DNA of 27,776 nucleotides, taken from the IMG/VR virus record IMGVR_UViG_3300025098_000224, positions 1 to 27,776 of that record. The stretch is one strand, 5' to 3'. Below the pieces are notes generated by a model. That model made no database searches. It saw nothing but the letters and a program-made list of their open reading frames with translations, and was not told where the DNA came from. The position numbers and the translations under genes were made by a program. The number at the start of each line of letters is the position of its first letter. Positions within the stretch are counted from its first letter, which is position 1. Shown piece by piece: positions 9,508 through 26,638 of the stretch. The stretch is from a virus.

Positions 9508-9732
9508 TTACTCTGAGGTTTCCGCAGGCCCCCCAGCGCTAGGAGTAACGACTTGTGTTTTACCTGCAGGTTCTTGCGCGTGGAAATTCACAACAGAATC
9601 AAGTTTATCGCGTATTTCGCCAACGCGGGCCATTTCCTTTCCTTCAAAGGCGCCGCGGCGAGAACAAGTATCAATGATTTGAACTACGAGTTCGAGATCT
9701 GAGGCAGTAATAACAGGTGTTTCTTTACTCAT
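9508..9732 (-). CDS. Small conserved hypothetical protein after gene 45
   Basis: A 74-residue protein. DLELVVQIIDTCSRRGAFEGKEMARVGEIRDKLDSVV (about 12-48) resembles short uncharacterised proteins of marine T4-like phages found near the clamp genes; the RGAFEG-x(n)-G-x-x-RDKL spacing is the memorable part. The tail (about 50-74) is small-residue and proline rich and looks disordered. The start overlaps the gene 45 stop in an ATGA junction, so it is probably translated by coupling. Function unknown; its context suggests a replication-associated role, which is inference. Confidence 0.75.
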   Translation of the reverse strand: MSKETPVITASDLELVVQIIDTCSRRGAFEGKEMARVGEIRDKLDSVVNFHAQEPAGKTQVVTPSAGGPAETSE

Positions 9733-10403
9733 TTACTAAAGGTCGAATTTTTTTCCAGCGCAATCCAGTATTCTACTGAAGATGTTTTTGATGCCCAATG
9801 GGAAATAAGCTTAGAGCTAATTGATACATCATAATCGCCATTGACCAATTTAAGGTTAGAAACCAAGAACTGAAAATCAAACGAATCTGCATCAGTATTA
9901 CACGAAACTTTATGTGAGTACGTATTGGACGAACTATTGCTTGGGTCTTTTATCTGCATTACAGTATCGCCGTTTGCTTCTTTCTTCGTAATAGAAACAA
10001 TTGGATGACCTAGCGCGGATGATGCCTTTCTAATTTGTGCGATATCGTCGGCTGTCAGAGTAACTGTGACTTCTGCATCGGGCATGTTTACTTCTTTTTC
10101 GGGATGAGTAAGAATTGAAGAATCAGCGTATCGATATGTAAGAGAAGATACGGCTGATCCAATTTCAACTGATTCATCGCCAAAAGTAAGATCGGGGTCT
10201 TCGATAAGAGAAAGTGCAGAAAGAAACTCGTTTAAGTCATAAATACCTACTTTCTTTGGGAAGGCTTCTTGAACTTTGGCTGACGCCAAAATGTTTTTTG
10301 CTTCAGCAATGGTTTGAATTGTATCACCTTCACACAAAACCAAATTGGGCTGAATGGAGGCAAAGTTTTTAAGAACATCAATTGTTTCTTTACTAATTTT
10401 CAT
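9729..10403 (-). CDS. 45: Sliding clamp, DNA polymerase processivity factor (T4 gp45)
   Basis: A 224-residue clamp protein. The N-terminus MKISKETIDVLKNFASIQPNLVL parallels T4 gp45 (MKLSKDTTALLKNFATINS), followed by the AEA segment, KVGIYDLNEFLSALSLIEDPDLTF, and a C-terminus ending YWIALEKNSTF. It forms the trimeric ring that tethers gp43 and also activates late transcription with gp55. The start at 10403 was chosen over an in-frame ATG five codons upstream because it gives the T4-like N-terminus and lies 6 nt after the -10 of a good promoter. That promoter sits within the end of the DUF5664 gene. Confidence 0.95.
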   Translation of the reverse strand: MKISKETIDVLKNFASIQPNLVLCEGDTIQTIAEAKNILASAKVQEAFPKKVGIYDLNEFLSALSLIEDPDLTFGDESVEIGSAVSSLTYRYADSSILTHPEKEVNMPDAEVTVTLTADDIAQIRKASSALGHPIVSITKKEANGDTVMQIKDPSNSSSNTYSHKVSCNTDADSFDFQFLVSNLKLVNGDYDVSISSKLISHWASKTSSVEYWIALEKNSTFSK

Positions 10404-10409
10404 GGTTGT

Positions 10410-10438
10410 ATTATACACTAGTTTTTTCGTTTTGTAAA
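10410..10438 (-). promoter_or_regulatory. sigma70-like promoter TTTACA-N17-TATAAT for gene 45
   Basis: Minus-strand TTTACA (10433-10438) and a perfect TATAAT (10410-10415) with a 17-nt spacer. The -10 ends 6 nt before the gene 45 ATG. It overlaps the last codons of the DUF5664 gene and would make a leaderless clamp mRNA, giving independent high expression of gp45. Confidence 0.7.
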
Positions 10439-10796: not shown

Positions 10797-11906
10797 TTAT
10801 TGTGATACGGGTTGTGGCTGAGCCAAGTTAAATGAATCTTCAAGAGTATAATCGACATTCACGTCAATCTTGCTATAAAGATCGAGGAAGGCTTGGCGGG
10901 TATCATCATCAAATCGGTTAATGCACATTTCGATAGATTTCAAACGATCATTAAAAATCGAATATGTTTTGACGATATGGCATAGTCTACGAGTGGAAAT
11001 AACGTCATCCACACCATCATTTTCAAATGTTTTGCGAATAACATTGGCCCATCCAATTAGACTTTGGATGAAATCAGAATCATCAACATCAAATGCATTT
11101 GCATGAAGATTTAAGATTTTGACTTCCTGTGCTGGAGAAGGATATTCTTGGTCAATTACCGCTACGAATCTTTCTAGGAATGCATCATCGATAATTGATG
11201 CCGCGCTATAACGACCATCTTCTGATCCACGACCTTTAGAGTTACCGGTCGCAATAACGTTAAATCCATGAGAAGGAGTAATTACTTCGCCAGTCTTTTT
11301 AATCATGATTGGCTTTCCTTCAAGGACACCCTGTAAGCATAAAATCTTATTTGTGCTTCGATCAATTTCATCGATAAGCAGAATCGCGCCACTTTCCATT
11401 GCCTTTACGACAGGACCTTTATGGAAAACGGTTTCGCCGTTGATAAGTCTAAAGCCTCCAATAAGATCATCCTCATCAGTTTCAGGCGAAATTTGCACAC
11501 GAATATATTCACTCTTTGTTTGTGCACAGGCTTGTTCAACCATAAATGATTTACCGTTGCCACTCATACCCTGAATGTAAATAGGGTAAAACATTTTAGA
11601 CTCGATAATTTTTACCAAAGAGGAGTGATTTCCCCATTTGACATATGTTCCGTTTTTATCGGGAATATAACAATCTTCGTTAACGATGGAGCTAACATTT
11701 TGAAGAACAGCAGGTTGCTTTACTTTAGTGACCGGCTTATTGGCTTGGCCAAAACTATAGCAACCACGAGATACGTTATTCATTTCGCGAAGGAGCTTCC
11801 AAACATCGCCATGAGGAATACTATTTTCATCAGCGATTTCTAAAATTTCCTTACGCTTAAACGTGGTGTTTTCTGTGTTTTTGAGAAGTTGTTTGAGTGT
11901 TTCCAT
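10797..11906 (-). CDS. cobS: MoxR/CobS-like AAA+ ATPase
   Basis: A 369-residue AAA+ ATPase of the MoxR/CobS type. Walker A is GMSGNGKS (113-120), Walker B AILLIDEID (174-182), followed by IATGNSKGRG (218-227) with the sensor 1 asparagine and LERF (244-247) with the arginine finger. The N-terminal 70 residues form a small helical domain. Such genes are annotated cobS in marine T4-like phages because bacterial CobS acts with CobT in cobalt chelation for cobalamin. Here the gene directly follows a VWA protein, the usual partner of MoxR ATPases. No other cobalamin gene is visible, so a protein-remodelling chaperone role is equally likely. It has its own promoter and a short leader containing AGGTAAG. 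Confidence 0.9.
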   Translation of the reverse strand: METLKQLLKNTENTTFKRKEILEIADENSIPHGDVWKLLREMNNVSRGCYSFGQANKPVTKVKQPAVLQNVSSIVNEDCYIPDKNGTYVKWGNHSSLVKIIESKMFYPIYIQGMSGNGKSFMVEQACAQTKSEYIRVQISPETDEDDLIGGFRLINGETVFHKGPVVKAMESGAILLIDEIDRSTNKILCLQGVLEGKPIMIKKTGEVITPSHGFNVIATGNSKGRGSEDGRYSAASIIDDAFLERFVAVIDQEYPSPAQEVKILNLHANAFDVDDSDFIQSLIGWANVIRKTFENDGVDDVISTRRLCHIVKTYSIFNDRLKSIEMCINRFDDDTRQAFLDLYSKIDVNVDYTLEDSFNLAQPQPVSQ

Positions 11907-11931
11907 ATTTTTCTTACCTGATTGTAGTGTT

Positions 11932-11960
11932 ATTCTATACTAAATTTAGCCTTTTGTACA
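11932..11960 (-). promoter_or_regulatory. Phage promoter TGTACA-N17-TAGAAT for the CobS-like gene
   Basis: Minus-strand TGTACA (11955-11960) and TAGAAT (11932-11937), spacer 17 nt, in the short gap after the VWA gene. Unlike the other copies the ATG is 25 nt away, leaving a leader of about 18 nt with an AGGTAAG Shine-Dalgarno-like element. Confidence 0.75.
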
Positions 11961-11979
11961 TAACAAAATGCTAAGCCAT

Positions 11980-14118
11980 TCATGAGATAGCCTGAGCAAA
12001 CTGCTCAAGCAAAATTTTAGATTTATTGTTTTTTTGGATATGAGCAGAAAAGTGACGGGCCAATTTTCCTTGTTCCCTTGCGGATGATTTAATGCTTTCG
12101 TTTGGCGAATCGCAATAATCAAAGTCATCATTATGAACTTTTACATCCACTGGAAGAATAAAGTGTTGATTATAGCCCAAGTAATTTTGTGATTCCACAA
12201 CATTATTTTTATGCATTTCCTTTTTAATCTTAAAAATGTCTTTACCTTTTATACTTGAAAGATATTTAAGCTGCTGGTTAAGATATCTTCTATTGTTTGG
12301 AAGATAATATCCAATCGTGTTGACATTCTTGGCGTCTGCCAGCATTTCTACAAATTTTGCAGTACGCAAATGGGCAGATCTAGGGATTTCGTATGTTTTG
12401 TTTTTAATACTAACCAAATAGTGTTCCGCACAATAACGAGAAGTTTTAGCCGGAGATGAATCGCCGTCAGTCAAAACAATAGTATTTAATTTTTGAACAC
12501 GATGAGCTTTTCTAAACTCGTCAATAAGTGCGTGAGCAATCACTAAAACATTTTGCGTAGGTGTCCCTCCCATATAATCAGCAGGGGTGCCAAGGAGACC
12601 TTCACTACAACCTACTTCAAATCGGTCTGCGATGGCCATACAAAATCTATCGTATGCCATTTCGTATACCTGTTTAGACATTTTGCTGGAAAAGTGTTCC
12701 ACAATGCGTGTATTAGTCAAATTAAACATGTTGTCATTTGAACTATCATCATATTGGCGCTCTTCAAAATTTATAGTTGTGAAAGAAAAAACCCTAAAAG
12801 GAATGCCGGCCATTTTGCAAAAATGCACCAAATTTAACGTATGCTCAAGCATATGATAAAACTGATTATGCATTGAAGCAGAAAAGTCAATAAAGAAAAT
12901 CATTCCATGACTTTTGGCATCGTACTTTTCAAATACACTATTGAAGATGTCATCTTTAATTTTATAAGAGTAAAGCCTGTTTGGATTAAGTGTGCCCGTT
13001 TTACTTTCTTTTCCGCGGGCATATTCATAAGCGGCCCTTTTTCTTTCAAAAGCTCTGGCTAAAATTGTGCCTTTCTTTCTAGTTCTCTTTTTTATCAGCA
13101 TTCCAGATGTGCTGATTTGTGACGTGTATGGATTGAAATGTGGTTCTTGAGTATTTTTGACGTACTTACTAAAATACTCTTTATAAGGAACAACATACTT
13201 AAGTAAATTTTCGTTGCTTTGAAAGACAACAGGCACCACTCCTCTATTTTTAAAAGATGCCGATTTGTCAATTAGATTTTTCTCAAAACTATCATCAATG
13301 GCTGTATCTTCTTTATCACAAATTTCGTTATCAGAATCTTCACCACCTGAATTGTTATTGCCAAAATCTTCGGTTCCAAAATCTTCGCCGCCATTTTCTT
13401 CTAAATCGGCATCAGAATCACCGGTGTTAGTATTAGAATCACCGGCATCAGATTCGTCAGTATCAGAATCATCGTAAAAATCAGGCGTATCTATGGAAGC
13501 AGATGGATCAAAAAGACTACCCTGTGGATCTGGTTGCTCATTCTTCTTTTTATTTTGTGAAATGAATTTTAGGATTTTGTGATATACACGAATCACATCA
13601 TCCCACGTTTCTGCAGAATAACATTCGTTGTAGAGATCCATTTCCTCGTTGTTAAGAGGTATGTCTACGTGATTTCCAATTTTAGCGTGAAGATTTAGGC
13701 GATTTGGAAACGACATTTTATTTATGTTTGCCTTATTGCCCAAGTTAAAAAAGTCGGAATCTACAAGTTCTTTATAGGCAGTATGAAAAATGCGAGGTAA
13801 AGAAGGATAAAGATTTTGTACAAGCCTTTCAATTCGAACATCCTCAATGACATTCAATAATTGGAAGTGCTTAGTGCCATGGTCTTTCTCAAATTGCTCG
13901 ACATCGTCTTTAAGTGTATAAAGAGCATGACCTACTTCATGCGCAATTAGCATATCATAAACCATGATGCCCATGTCTTTCCAAGCTGGCAATACGAGGT
14001 TGCGATTAACAACATCAAAACTTGCAGTGTCTGCTATAGGGTCATGTATGACGGTAATGTTTTCTTTAGCAAGGAGTTTTGCTAAAGTTGATTTATGTTG
14101 AAGTTTTAAAATTTCCAT
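11980..14118 (-). CDS. CobT-like VWA protein with HEXXH metallopeptidase motif
   Basis: A 712-residue protein in three parts. The N-terminal domain carries MLIAHEVGHALYTL with H60-E61-x-x-H64, followed about 30 residues later by NVIEDVRIERL (E92, E97), a gluzincin-like arrangement in which the second element supplies the third zinc ligand. Residues about 208-275 are a very acidic Asp/Ser/Glu/Asn linker. The C-terminal half is a von Willebrand A domain with the MIDAS motif D411-x-S413-x-S415 in FFIDFSASMHNQF and a later LTDGDSSP. Bacterial CobT has a similar acidic-linker-VWA layout and pairs with CobS; the MoxR/CobS-like ATPase is next downstream. The start at 14118, seven codons inside the frame, avoids overlap with the upstream tRNA. 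Proteolysis is inferred. Confidence 0.82.
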   Translation of the reverse strand: MEILKLQHKSTLAKLLAKENITVIHDPIADTASFDVVNRNLVLPAWKDMGIMVYDMLIAHEVGHALYTLKDDVEQFEKDHGTKHFQLLNVIEDVRIERLVQNLYPSLPRIFHTAYKELVDSDFFNLGNKANINKMSFPNRLNLHAKIGNHVDIPLNNEEMDLYNECYSAETWDDVIRVYHKILKFISQNKKKNEQPDPQGSLFDPSASIDTPDFYDDSDTDESDAGDSNTNTGDSDADLEENGGEDFGTEDFGNNNSGGEDSDNEICDKEDTAIDDSFEKNLIDKSASFKNRGVVPVVFQSNENLLKYVVPYKEYFSKYVKNTQEPHFNPYTSQISTSGMLIKKRTRKKGTILARAFERKRAAYEYARGKESKTGTLNPNRLYSYKIKDDIFNSVFEKYDAKSHGMIFFIDFSASMHNQFYHMLEHTLNLVHFCKMAGIPFRVFSFTTINFEERQYDDSSNDNMFNLTNTRIVEHFSSKMSKQVYEMAYDRFCMAIADRFEVGCSEGLLGTPADYMGGTPTQNVLVIAHALIDEFRKAHRVQKLNTIVLTDGDSSPAKTSRYCAEHYLVSIKNKTYEIPRSAHLRTAKFVEMLADAKNVNTIGYYLPNNRRYLNQQLKYLSSIKGKDIFKIKKEMHKNNVVESQNYLGYNQHFILPVDVKVHNDDFDYCDSPNESIKSSAREQGKLARHFSAHIQKNNKSKILLEQFAQAIS

Positions 14119-14131
14119 AATATAAAAAGTT

Positions 14132-14208
14132 TGGTACACCCAGCTGGGCTCGAACCAGCAACCTACCGCTTAGAAGGCGGTGGCTCTATCCAATTGAGCT
14201 ATGGGCGC
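14132..14208 (-). tRNA. tRNA-Arg(UCU), CCA encoded
   Basis: A complete cloverleaf on the minus strand. The acceptor GCGCCCA pairs with TGGGTGT (two G-U pairs), the D-arm contains AGCTCAATTGGATAGAGC, the anticodon stem ACCGC/GCGGT holds the loop CTTCTAA with anticodon TCT, and the T-arm has GGTTCGAGCC. The 3' end ACCA is encoded (discriminator A at 14135, CCA 14134-14132). It reads AGA, a codon favoured by AT-rich genomes. It lies between the 76-residue gene, whose last 10 nt it overlaps, and the VWA gene, and would be processed from their transcript. Confidence 0.96.
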
Positions 14209-14575: not shown

Positions 14576-16285
14576 CTAAGCCTTAATCTGAGAAAAATTG
14601 CCGTTTTTCTCAAATGTGATCTTAGCAGGGAACTTACCCTCCAACTCGGCGTGCTTATGGGAAATCACAAATGTATTTGTGTCATCCTTAAGCGTATAAA
14701 GAATTTTCATCAGATTATCAACACCGTCGGAATCCATACTCGAATCAAACGTTTCGTCGAGAATAAGAAGATTTGTGTTTGCAGAGTTTTTCATTTTTGC
14801 GATTTGTCTCCAAGCAAACAAAAGACTTAAATCAATTCTTTGTTTTTCGCCTTCAGAAAAAGAAGCATAACTAAAATCATCACGATGGCGTGATCGAATA
14901 GTTTCGTTAAACGATTCGTCAAGATTAAATAGAACAAAAAAGTCAAGGACCTGCAAATACTGATTAATGAGCTTATTCATTACAGGCAAATACTGACGAA
15001 TAACCTTTGTCTTAATTCCAGTATCCCGAAGAAGTTCGCCAATTGCTTCATAGTATGAGCTAAGTTGACTTTGTTCAGTTTTTTCTGTTTGTAATGTGTT
15101 TCTTTTTTCCTGATCAGCCAAGAGTTTTGTTTTTGCTTTAGAAGTATCTTGCTTAGTTGCAACGCTCTTACTTAAAGCCTTTATTCTTTTTTCAATTAGT
15201 GTGATCCGAGTTTGATTTGAGCGAATACTTGAGTCTACCTCATTTAGGTGTGTATACGATTTTTGCAAATCTGCGATTTCTTTGTCAATCTTATCAAGCT
15301 TACCATTAATGGATTTATAGCTTATGTGCAAATTTTTGGCATGGGTCTTACACTCATCGTTTTTTTGTTTTTTCAAATCGGCAGAAAGCGCTTGCGCGCA
15401 CGTAGGACACGTGTCGTGTTTTTCATAAAAGCGGGCTTGCTTTACAACATCATCCATCTGAAGCTTTAAAGACGATTTTTGAATTTTAGTATCGTTCTTT
15501 AATTCTTGTGATGACTTTAATGCGTTTGATACCTTATCAAATTTATTGTCGTATTTGGATTGAAGGCTCGTATTGCTTTCTGATAAGACCTTCACCTCTT
15601 CCTTTAGCGTGGTGAGTTCCTTTTTTCTTTTTTCATTTTGAGAAGAATCAATTTTTTCCAACTCATTAATGTGATCAATTTGTAGCTTAATAGTTTCCTG
15701 AAGAATGTTCAGCTGATTATCTGTTTCATTAATTTCGTTCTTAAGAAGACCTGCCCTTTCTTTAAGGACAACATTCATTTTAGTAAAAACACCAATGTCA
15801 AGTAATTCCTCAATCACTGCCCGGCGTTGATGAGACGGCAGCTGCATAAAGGGAACAAAATTCGAAGAACCAAGGACCACGACTTGATGAAATGATTTGT
15901 GGTTAAGCTTAAGAATATTTTGCTCAATGATTTTTTGATAATCGCGACTGTGCGATTCTTGATTTAACAATTGGCCATTTCGATAAACCTCAAAAATATT
16001 TGGCTTCATTCCTCGAACAATTTTGTAATCAGTTGGACCTACACTAAAGTGAACAGTGACAAGACAATTTTTATTGTTGATCGTATTGACAAGTTGAGGC
16101 TTATTAATGTTACGGTGTGGCTTACCAAATAAAGCAAACGATAAGGCATCAAGCATAGTAGACTTTCCGGCACCGTTTGAGCCTACTACTAAAGTCGAGG
16201 CGTTCTTGTTTAAATAAACAGAGCTTGCTTTATTTCCTGTCGACAAAAAGTTTTGCCATTCCAATTTTTTAAATTCTAAAATCAT
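14576..16285 (-). CDS. 46: Recombination endonuclease ATPase subunit (T4 gp46, Rad50/SbcC-like)
   Basis: A 569-residue SMC-like ATPase; T4 gp46 is 560. The N-terminal Walker A is GSNGAGKS (35-42), followed by the Q-loop region with HQVVVLGSSNFVPFMQLP. Two long coiled-coil arms (about 180-280 and 300-400) flank a zinc hook C293-P-T-C296. The C-terminal half has the ABC signature FSEGEKQRIDLSL and Walker B LLILDETFDSSMD. With gp47 it resects DNA ends for recombination-dependent replication. It overlaps gene 47 in an ATGA junction. All catalytic elements are intact. Between its stop and the next promoter are about 110 nt with a small AATCAC/GTGATT hairpin. Confidence 0.97.
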   Translation of the reverse strand: MILEFKKLEWQNFLSTGNKASSVYLNKNASTLVVGSNGAGKSTMLDALSFALFGKPHRNINKPQLVNTINNKNCLVTVHFSVGPTDYKIVRGMKPNIFEVYRNGQLLNQESHSRDYQKIIEQNILKLNHKSFHQVVVLGSSNFVPFMQLPSHQRRAVIEELLDIGVFTKMNVVLKERAGLLKNEINETDNQLNILQETIKLQIDHINELEKIDSSQNEKRKKELTTLKEEVKVLSESNTSLQSKYDNKFDKVSNALKSSQELKNDTKIQKSSLKLQMDDVVKQARFYEKHDTCPTCAQALSADLKKQKNDECKTHAKNLHISYKSINGKLDKIDKEIADLQKSYTHLNEVDSSIRSNQTRITLIEKRIKALSKSVATKQDTSKAKTKLLADQEKRNTLQTEKTEQSQLSSYYEAIGELLRDTGIKTKVIRQYLPVMNKLINQYLQVLDFFVLFNLDESFNETIRSRHRDDFSYASFSEGEKQRIDLSLLFAWRQIAKMKNSANTNLLILDETFDSSMDSDGVDNLMKILYTLKDDTNTFVISHKHAELEGKFPAKITFEKNGNFSQIKA

Positions 16286-23688: not shown

Positions 23689-24330
23689 TTAGAGTTTGGA
23701 GAGGAAATCACTAAAGATCCGTTCCTGTGCTTCACTGATCCGCCCAAGTGGAACCTTTTTAATTTCAGTCTCATATTCTTCAATTTGCTGAGATTTTAAA
23801 ATGCCATTTTCCCAAACCCATTCAACTCCTTCCATGATACCTTCAACGAAGGCACTAGGAGCAGAGGGGTCTTGAACAATGTCGACAGTTGAAAGAATAA
23901 AATCATCTTTCACAAATGTCTTTGCATTTCGATTCTCAACAGTACCCATACCACGACTTGAGACACCTAACTTACACCCACCATCAACGAGACCTTTCAC
24001 AATTTTGCCCATCGGTGTGTCAAGAATAAGTGCCTTTCCAACAACATCATTACCTTGCCACTTAAGCTCGGTAATTCTGTGTGAAACTTTATCTAAGTTA
24101 ATTGTAGGACCATCAGGGTGATTTAATTCACCAACTGCTCTTCCCGTTTTAACTTGTTCTTTAACATACTTATCACATGCGCTTTCAAGAACGCCTTTTG
24201 GATAAATTCGCTTATTGCGATTTTCCTTTTCTGCTTGCATGAAGACACCTTCAATATAGACGTCCTTCTTACCGTTCTTTTCTTCGGTAATATATTCAAG
24301 CGATTCTAAGTGTTCTGTGATAAGTTTCAT
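23689..24330 (-). CDS. 21: Prohead core protease (T4 gp21)
   Basis: A 213-residue serine protease that digests the core and trims gp23; length equals T4 gp21 (212). The catalytic histidine is in GELNHP (H71), the serine in LGVSSRG (S124 or S125) and an aspartate in STVDIVQDPSAP (D150 or D154). NRNKRIYPKGVL near residue 38 is the usual substrate-binding region. It follows the small core peptide with an ATGA overlap and precedes gp22 by 15 nt, the T4 order. Confidence 0.96.
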   Translation of the reverse strand: MKLITEHLESLEYITEEKNGKKDVYIEGVFMQAEKENRNKRIYPKGVLESACDKYVKEQVKTGRAVGELNHPDGPTINLDKVSHRITELKWQGNDVVGKALILDTPMGKIVKGLVDGGCKLGVSSRGMGTVENRNAKTFVKDDFILSTVDIVQDPSAPSAFVEGIMEGVEWVWENGILKSQQIEEYETEIKKVPLGRISEAQERIFSDFLSKL

Positions 24331-24526: not shown

Positions 24527-24838
24527 TCACTCTGAAGGAGAGTCGTTTGGCGCAACGTAGGTAACGCTACCATCTGCATTAGTCACAAACACTTCAGGGT
24601 TGTGTGCGGTCAAACCATCAGCTTGACCAAGAGAATCGAGCGCGGTGTAAAGAGTATTGTAAACAGTAATTGCTTCAACTGCCTGCGTACCAAGAACATC
24701 AAGAATTGCTTGTTCTTCGCCTTCAGTAGTAACAAGTGAATAAGCATTTTTTGCTTGTGCACGCAAAAAGCTAACTGTCTGCTCGTTGATTTCTTCAATC
24801 CGAACAGCGACTTGAGTTGATTTAGGTATTAGTGCCAT
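24527..24838 (-). CDS. Hypothetical virion-region protein
   Basis: A 103-residue protein not recognised. Residues 1-70 form helices (RIEEINEQTVSFLRAQAKNAYSLV, then EEQAILDVLGTQAVEAITVYNTLYTALDSLG), followed by a short, likely exposed tail (FVTNADGSVTYVAPNDSPSE). It lies between a tail-fibre gene and the head operon, preceded 5 nt upstream by a late-type box CATAAATA, so it is probably a late structural or accessory virion protein. No enzyme motif is visible. Confidence 0.65.
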   Translation of the reverse strand: MALIPKSTQVAVRIEEINEQTVSFLRAQAKNAYSLVTTEGEEQAILDVLGTQAVEAITVYNTLYTALDSLGQADGLTAHNPEVFVTNADGSVTYVAPNDSPSE

Positions 24839-26197: not shown

Positions 26198-26638
26198 TTA
26201 GATCCAATTGTTATTTGGAAACCACCCATCAGCATCCATTTCTGCCTTGGTTCTAAGATTGGCGGACAAGCTAGGAGATTCAATAATTACTTGAAGGAAA
26301 GATATTCTACCACCCTTTGCATCTTCGATGTTAGTTTCGATCGCATTAGCTTCTTCTAACGTTACGGCATCCTCAATAAGCGCACGAAAAGCAGGAACAT
26401 CGCAATCTTCATGAATAGGCTGATCTTCAGTGCACTGATAAATGGTCTCGCCATTTTCGCCCTCAAGTTGATAACTGACCTCGCCTAATACACTAAGTGC
26501 TGCCCGGCCATCTGTGTGAACGTGCCAATCAACATAGTATTCGGTTGCATCGTTGCCACTAGGACGAGTTAATCTCCACATCGCAGAAGATAACGCTTTG
26601 GCGTGTTGCTCGCCCTGACTTAGAATTAGATATTTCAT
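26198..26638 (-). CDS. Hypothetical protein in the tail-fibre region
   Basis: A 146-residue protein not recognised. It has mixed beta and helical character: MKYLILSQGEQ at the start, a YYVDWHVHTDGRAAL segment (35-49), and a helical DAVTLEEANAIETNIEDAKGG region before a Trp-rich end. It could be a small fibre accessory or assembly protein, but nothing specific supports that. It overlaps the upstream LamG-like gene by 4 nt, so it is coupled to it. A gap of 58 nt, holding the fibre gene's late box, separates it from the fibre gene. Confidence 0.65.
   Translation of the reverse strand: MKYLILSQGEQHAKALSSAMWRLTRPSGNDATEYYVDWHVHTDGRAALSVLGEVSYQLEGENGETIYQCTEDQPIHEDCDVPAFRALIEDAVTLEEANAIETNIEDAKGGRISFLQVIIESPSLSANLRTKAEMDADGWFPNNNWI

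Follow-up and report, generated by a model that had tools for sequence, protein, structure and literature searches.

A MoxR-type ATPase and a predicted metallopeptidase-VWA partner at the phage 'cobS' locus, and their relation to CobT

The gene named cobS in phages raises the question of whether it serves vitamin B12 synthesis or drives a machine of another kind. We examined this question in a virus fragment of 27,776 bases (IMG/VR record IMGVR_UViG_3300025098_000224; hereafter the window), in which the gene of a 712-residue protein with a VWA domain precedes, on the minus strand and with 73 bases between them, the gene of a 369-residue AAA+ ATPase of the phage CobS family. The cobS gene belongs to the cyanophage core (PMC3037559), and ecological studies list it among vitamin B12 genes (PMC2984593, PMC9983427), the latter source noting that what it does in an infected host is not known. 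Two published readings of such pairs disagree. Liu 2021 (PMC8651126) described the partner as 'mistakenly annotated as a peptidase' and read the pair as CobST; a term search of the main text of that paper found no HExxH, zinc or metalloprotease. Iyer 2021 (PMC7824862) described a pair of MoxR and metallopeptidase-vWA proteins in group 2.2 T4-related jumbo phages and proposed virion assembly. The domain plan is already in print for related phages and the peptidase idea is not new; new here are a test that sets the peptidase against the CobT reading, the link of the N-terminal domain to CobT, and the neighbourhood. No paper testing HExxH in phage CobT or comparing the phage protein with CobT was found in a search that took in few subscription papers or bioRxiv preprints. 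Judged from sequences and models, the two genes were on balance best explained as one two-part remodelling/peptidase machine.

The two genes and their conserved motifs

The features of the pair were as follows.

11980..14118, minus strand: 712-residue metallopeptidase-VWA protein (open reading frame (ORF); phrog_459 'peptidase')
13525..14118, minus strand: N-terminal domain, residues 1-198, predicted gluzincin-like fold (AlphaFold2 (AF2) model; top structural rows were zincin peptidases)
13927..13941, minus strand: HEVGH, residues 60-64, with predicted zinc ligands H60 and H64 and predicted catalytic E61 (conservation)
13828..13848, minus strand: IEDVRIE, residues 91-97, with E92 as predicted third zinc ligand (conservation)
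13294..13524, minus strand: acidic linker, residues 199-275, low model confidence (composition and predicted local distance difference test score (pLDDT))
12301..12966, minus strand: VWA domain, about residues 385-606 (nearest solved folds: the NorD VWA and Midasin MIDAS domains)
12874..12888, minus strand: metal ion-dependent adhesion site (MIDAS) motif DxSxS, residues 411-415 (kept in 111 of 111 sequences)
10797..11906, minus strand: 369-residue MoxR-type AAA+ ATPase, named CobS in phages (AAA_5 and phrog_249 profiles)
11547..11570, minus strand: Walker A motif GMSGNGKS, ATPase residues 113-120 (sequence)
11361..11381, minus strand: Walker B region with DE, ILLIDEID, ATPase residues 175-182 (sequence)

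A sequence-only reading of the window had described the 712-residue protein by its HEVGH and IEDVRIE motifs, acidic linker and MIDAS-bearing VWA domain, beside a MoxR/CobS-like ATPase, and all of these were read directly in the sequence. The listed ORF of the larger gene encodes 719 residues from a GTG that falls within a tRNA-Arg gene, and the ATG at 14118 was therefore preferred as the start. The linker contains 27 Asp or Glu and one Lys or Arg among its 77 residues, and the MIDAS motif is D411-x-S413-x-S415.

The 712-residue protein matched phrog_459 over its full length (residues 6-712 to profile positions 4-736 of 736, E = 1.8e-134). It matched no Pfam model above the cut-off and no NCBIfam model at E<=1; Pfam matches to DUF5759 and AEP-TOTE lay below the cut-off and were dropped. 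PDB sequence searches with the protein, with a nine-row profile and with a profile of the N-terminal domain gave nothing meaningful, and a search of viral contigs with the single sequence returned only one fragment, identical over residues 101-712. By tblastn the protein was found in 463 of 50,697 phage records, mainly from cyanophages, with 'peptidase' as the annotation of most matches listed; the ATPase was found in 872 phage records, remote AAA+ proteins included. The name tallies of the two sets of matches agreed (Synechococcus 365, Cyanophage 61, Prochlorococcus 24, counted by organism name and not per record). Both proteins are members of known phage families common in cyanophages. The Kyanoviridae phrog_459 and phrog_249 proteins, such as gp150/gp153 of cyanophage Syn9 and those of Pelagibacter phage HTVC008M, resembled the window pair in the full-length match, in the gene order gp46-peptidase-cobS-gp45, and in HExxH and MIDAS, but shared only 29-30% identity with the 712-residue protein.

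The ATPase matched AAA_5 of Pfam (5.1e-21) and phrog_249 'porphyrin biosynthesis' (E = 1.1e-107), and its best PDB sequence matches were Midasin (2.9e-39, in three stretches of one chain), followed by CobS (4.4e-17) and NorQ (2.7e-13). Residues G113, G116, G118 and K119 of Walker A and D179 and E180 of Walker B were invariant among nine phage CobS proteins. Residues 1-80 form an N-terminal extension, of which residues 2-44 gave a weak winged-helix match below the cut-off (PF25051, E = 0.0086).

The gene of this AAA_5-type ATPase adjoins the MIDAS VWA gene, the arrangement of a MoxR-VWA pair. A survey of phage cobS neighbours, which the sequence-only reading had proposed, found the same partner at 62 of 80 CobS-anchored loci. 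Seventeen of the 18 loci lacking it had less than 1.7 kb of contig upstream of CobS, and one partnerless locus (L215) shares a contig with another (L029) whose partner sits about 7.7 kb away. At four loci the gene order was reversed, with the partner ATG lying between a 1-base overlap with the CobS stop and 2 bases past it; adjacency therefore survives rearrangement. These sequence comparisons indicated that the 712-residue protein very probably works with the neighbouring ATPase.

The HExxH, NxxEDxRI and MIDAS motifs were invariant in the window protein and eight phage relatives with 21-30% identity to it. In a wider set of 111 sequences (window included, 80% identity filter), all kept H60, E61, H64, N89, D93, R95, D411, S413, S415, T519 and D551, while E92 was kept in 110 (Asp in L184) and E97 in 109. 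This set was gathered largely by these same motifs, and the CobS-anchored survey was therefore the fair test of conservation. In that survey HExxH was present in 48 of 48 complete partners and in the two contig-cut ones that reach the motif (50 of 50); 49 of these carried EDxR and one, again L184, DDxR, and they fell into 47 groups by shared 12-mers. The 80 loci were those nearest to the window's CobS and their contigs overlapped with the motif-selected set, so that the sample is unbiased for the motif and not for phylogeny. The conservation of HExxH, E92 and E97 in homologues, on which the sequence-only reading had staked its case, was thus borne out.

Predicted folds of the partner domains

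AF2 modelling with the 111 sequences gave a pLDDT of 83.1 and a predicted template modelling score (pTM) of 0.77 for the whole protein, and 93.5 and 0.88 for residues 1-198; pLDDT fell below 50 at linker residues 199-204, 206-225 and 232-269. The confident model of the N-terminal domain, a check that had been suggested for this locus, contained three strands and showed the gluzincin arrangement of an HExxH on a helix with a downstream Glu ligand: HEVGH lay within helix 51-67 and E92 within helix 85-103. In a Foldseek search with this domain the best seven rows were the minigluzincins selecase, abylysin and jannalysin (best E = 0.064, probability 0.90-1.00), and lower rows held IrrE, LTA4H and ArdC interspersed with unrelated chains. 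VIA-align ranked jannalysin (Z = 7.4, root-mean-square deviation (rmsd) 2.8, 99 residues aligned), BepA (7.3, 4.0, 131) and selecase (7.2, 5.4, 97), and further down BlaR1 (6.9), ArdC (6.4) and Wss1 (5.5). No single score for this domain was strong; rank order, motif position and motif conservation pointed the same way. The minigluzincins, BepA of family M48, ArdC, Wss1 and IrrE resemble the domain in predicted fold and HExxH helix, at weak structural scores, and to our knowledge none of them has a VWA domain or a MoxR partner. Sequence and model together made it very probable that the catalytic-site motif is intact in a zincin-like domain, and the 712-residue protein is probably a peptidase.

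The VWA domain resembled that of NorD in the NorQ-NorD complex (9qh6, E = 1.9e-6; 9qh8, Z = 15.4, rmsd 4.3, 238 aligned) and the MIDAS domain of Midasin (8ql1, Z = 15.6, rmsd 3.2, 217 aligned). These systems likewise combine a MoxR-clade ATPase with a MIDAS VWA domain, and Midasin was the strongest AAA+ sequence match of the ATPase; they differed in that the listed structural matches began at model residue 293 or later, and none covered the metallopeptidase domain. The CobT entry 9uka was not among the structural-search matches listed, which is uninformative either way.

MoxR-clade rings with MIDAS VWA partners are described as ATP-driven remodellers (PMC7159879). By family, the MoxR-type ATPase would form an ATP-driven ring, and the 712-residue partner would dock on it through its MIDAS VWA domain, as NorD does on NorQ. 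The flexible acidic tether would carry the gluzincin-like domain, with H60, H64 and E92 as putative zinc ligands and E61 as the putative catalytic residue. The VWA domain may recruit a target, which the ring would pull or remodel and which the tethered domain would cut or handle in a metal-dependent manner. Such a protein-remodelling or cutting machine was considered more likely than a B12 enzyme because the partner of the motor carries the signature motif of zinc peptidases. The sequence-only reading had predicted an ATP-driven remodelling or proteolytic machine rather than, or as well as, a cobalamin enzyme; it was supported in that the pair is an ATPase plus a VWA protein with an intact gluzincin-type motif and fails the CobT and CobS models as given below, and its proteolytic part stays a prediction.

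Relation to CobT and the cobaltochelatase reading

According to Liu 2021 (PMC8651126), the phage pair is CobST, which would team up with the host's CobN to increase B12 production, ribonucleotide reduction being one possible use. The window pair does have a MIDAS VWA protein beside an AAA+ gene, as CobST has. However, the 712-residue protein matched none of TIGR01651 (CobT), PF06213 (CobT) and PF11775 (CobT_C) at E<=1, two phage relatives likewise gave no match to TIGR01651, and the ATPase scored 58.2 bits against TIGR01650 (CobS), for which the cut-off is 558.55. The HExxH kept in phages was absent from all 25 genuine CobT sequences, taken from the order of Faunimonas pinastri, in which E(Q/R/N)xRx(E/D) was kept; the CobT EQARxE aligned with the phage EDxRIE. 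As the sequence-only reading had observed, no cobalamin gene other than the pair was seen among the 28 window ORFs scanned with PHROGs (28 of 51 listed in this 27.8-kb fragment, the remainder being the non-overlapping 2001-2273, 24527-24838 and 26198-26638 and 20 overlapping ORFs).

Cellular HExxH-VWA proteins, found on bacterial chromosomes and an IncC plasmid, carry HExxH, EDxRIE and a VWA domain as in the phage protein. Their N-terminal domain was homologous to that of the phage proteins (hhalign 99.3%, E = 6.2e-21) and also matched CobT (79.4%, E = 1.5e-5). Four of the five cellular HExxH proteins scanned passed PF06213 and one (L127) failed it, and a CobS-profile match lay within the fetched stretch at 11 of 17 motif-selected cellular loci. 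We know of no tested function for these bacterial and IncC proteins. Ten more phage and island proteins, fetched by similarity and aligned, carried HExxH in eight cases (CRP-810, RHEph10, SSU5, ICP2, HHTV-2 gp2, HCTV-5, BS162P1 and the Salmonella island), the ICP2 protein having no Glu at the E92 position. In a tree of 52 rows CobT formed one clade beside the HExxH-bearing protein of phage CRP-810 (98/90), and three changes were needed, read as losses of HExxH in CobT, nickie and BUCTxx99; this tree has long branches and an arbitrary root, includes 14 of the 25 CobT sequences and labels L124, with HExxxH, as HExxH. On these sequence comparisons, CobT looks like a relative of the phage protein that lost its active site, with the cellular HExxH-VWA proteins bridging the two. 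In bacterial CobT, on this view, the active site would have decayed as the module came to power cobalt insertion.

Four cellular relatives (L124, L125, L126 and L128) had one extra residue in the motif, HExxxH (HEGVGH in L124-L126, and HEATGH), followed by a normal EDIRIE. CobT has an invariant H[DN]xxxH, with H73 and H78 in 25 of 25 sequences and position 74 as Asp in 20 and Asn in five. We considered that this may be a shifted remnant of HExxH, like the HEGVGH of L124-L126; unlike that reading, the MAFFT and hhalign alignments both set HExxH opposite non-His residues of CobT. In Pseudoalteromonas phage XG4 (L258 3851-6108) and HHTV-2 (L255 416-2989) the HExxH and VWA/MIDAS parts were on two separate ORFs. 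Of two candidate homologues, GodonK gp105 has HETGH and no MIDAS, and Kudefre gp142 has neither motif.

Genome content bore on the cobaltochelatase reading from both sides. One Prochlorococcus genome (G012) had two PF02514 (CobN/ChlH-family) proteins and no CobT model match; CobN without CobT therefore exists in a likely host, and the hijack of host CobN is possible there. Against this, four of 12 genomes (G001, G002, G004 and G005), each with a cellular relative and at least one of them a draft metagenome-assembled genome, had no PF02514 protein. Ten of 60 CobT-matching genomes (G013-G072) also had no PF02514 protein, some of them being possibly incomplete, and the Caulobacter vibrioides control matched CobT and was not listed for PF02514; even CobST may therefore have a role independent of CobN. 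A literature search gave no plain statement that the hosts Pelagibacter and E. coli are without CobN, and the argument makes no use of this point. Taken together, the pair is likely not mainly a cobaltochelatase, and the reading of Liu 2021 as a whole was regarded as improbable, although Liu is right, as far as sequences tell, that CobT is related to the phage protein. The sequence evidence favours the domain reading of Iyer 2021 over that of Liu 2021 and extends it to the cyanophage/pelagiphage family.

Neighbourhood and the phase of infection

The immediate neighbours of the pair were as follows; T4 names of window genes were taken from PHROG descriptions and gene order.

14132..14208, minus strand: tRNA-Arg (TCT), 13 bases upstream of the 712-residue gene, a neighbour outside the machine (ARAGORN)
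9729..10418, minus strand: sliding clamp gp45, conserved flank (phrog_223, 1.8e-70)
14576..16285, minus strand: gp46 recombination nuclease subunit, conserved flank (phrog_77, 2.8e-159)

The pair was flanked on one side by gp43, regA, gp62, gp44 and gp45, and on the other by gp46, gp47, gp55, a UvsW-type helicase and UvsY, then the tail tube, gp23, gp22 and the gp21-type head maturation protease (23692-24330). The order gp46-peptidase-cobS-gp45, sometimes with intervening genes, recurred in Syn9, P-RSM4, Bellamy, ACG-2014f, S-B64, HTVC008M and Ochrobactrum phage OC; S-CRM01 kept the pair with gp45 on the opposite strand and gp46 outside the stretch shown. In other phages the pair was near DNA ligase and DNA polymerase (RHEph10, SSU5 and nickie), near primase, recombinase and DNA polymerase (BUCTxx99), or near primase and helicase (ICP2). 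Endonuclease V and integrase lay nearby in CRP-810 and a Hef-type nuclease in HCTV-5; the HHTV-2 and BS162P1 stretches were mostly hypothetical, and XG4 was unannotated. The neighbourhood gives mild support to a role in replication/recombination over one in head maturation. The machine would most likely be active in the replication/recombination phase of infection and not in B12 synthesis or head maturation; that the pair acts on the replication/recombination complexes themselves is a tentative proposal.

On the IncC plasmid (L263 5812-12438) a MoxR ATPase gene, a hypothetical gene, ssb, bet, exo, a DUF3150 gene and an HExxH-VWA gene stand in a row. The plasmid VWA protein starts with an HEAAH...NVLEDCRIER N-terminal domain and differs from the phage system in having the DUF3150 protein alongside; a tblastn search with the VWA protein of the Ochrobactrum phage returned no plasmid homologue, though the IncC plasmid carries a divergent one. 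The Salmonella island (L261 1-5291) has the same order of bet, a further gene, a 425-residue gene placed similarly to the DUF3150 gene, and an HExxH-VWA gene, and no CobS-profile match lay within this stretch.

For the T4-related jumbo phages of group 2.2, Iyer 2021 (PMC7824862) proposed that the MoxR-vWA pair assembles structural proteins of the virion and that its peptidase domain trims them; the analogy drawn was with the tail of Acidianus two-tailed virus. By its published description, the only basis of our comparison, the group 2.2 pair has the same domain plan and gene pairing as the window pair; it differs in the virion assembly proposed for it, and that paper places cyanophage P-SSM2 in group 2.1. 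The sequence-only reading had also suggested host takeover, which is conceivable, or a part in virion maturation, which the window did not bear out. The phage has its own gp21 protease, for which reason a role other than head maturation was favoured; the pair lies in the replication block, away from gp21-gp23; and the same module occurs in the IncC plasmid and bacterial chromosomes. No T4-type late promoter motif was found just upstream of the pair, which is weak evidence because such motifs (up to one mismatch) occurred at chance frequency in this sequence (59 seen, mean of 55 expected); scans for sigma-70 promoters and terminators were likewise at chance level. A role in virion assembly was thus judged unlikely. 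Metal handling without proteolysis, in which the HExxH domain would be a metal site for delivering or inserting a metal into some target protein, much as metalloenzymes are activated by NorQ-NorD-type pairs, is consistent with a VWA domain nearest to NorD, with CobT relatives that insert cobalt and with family members lacking HExxH, but is doubtful given that E61, unneeded for zinc binding alone, was kept in every motif-reaching CobS-anchored partner and that HExxH is the very motif lost by CobT, whose part in metal insertion is known.

Several results weigh against the two-part remodelling/peptidase machine. All structural matches of the N-terminal domain were above E = 0.001 and had Z below 8, a range in which, by the tool's own warning, a common arrangement alone may account for the match. 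The direct comparison of the phage N-terminal domain with the CobT profile was weak (1.9%, 37 columns), and the link between phage protein and CobT therefore runs via the cellular proteins. The relatives in nickie (L254 3067-5151, SEISK) and BUCTxx99 (L257 2983-4968, REVST) have no HExxH and keep the MoxR neighbour; they are apparent pseudo-enzymes, and a non-catalytic role therefore exists in the family. With respect to the neighbourhood, RHEph10, SSU5, nickie and BUCTxx99 have a common gene order and amount to a single case, not four independent ones, and early phage genes often adjoin replication genes, so that the context is weak and the survey uncontrolled.

It is conceivable, from the sequences and models compared here, that phages, conjugative elements and bacteria share a class of MoxR-powered zinc peptidases acting on replication/recombination complexes, of which CobST would be an offshoot with a dead peptidase and a motor reused for cobalt. 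In that case the auxiliary metabolic gene 'cobS', as carried by marine cyanophages, would have no place among the genes for vitamin B12. Should the pair prove to be a motor-driven peptidase, a gene very common in marine viruses would have been wrongly assigned to B12, the conflict between the readings of Liu 2021 and Iyer 2021 could be tested directly, and CobT would gain an evolutionary origin as a decayed peptidase.

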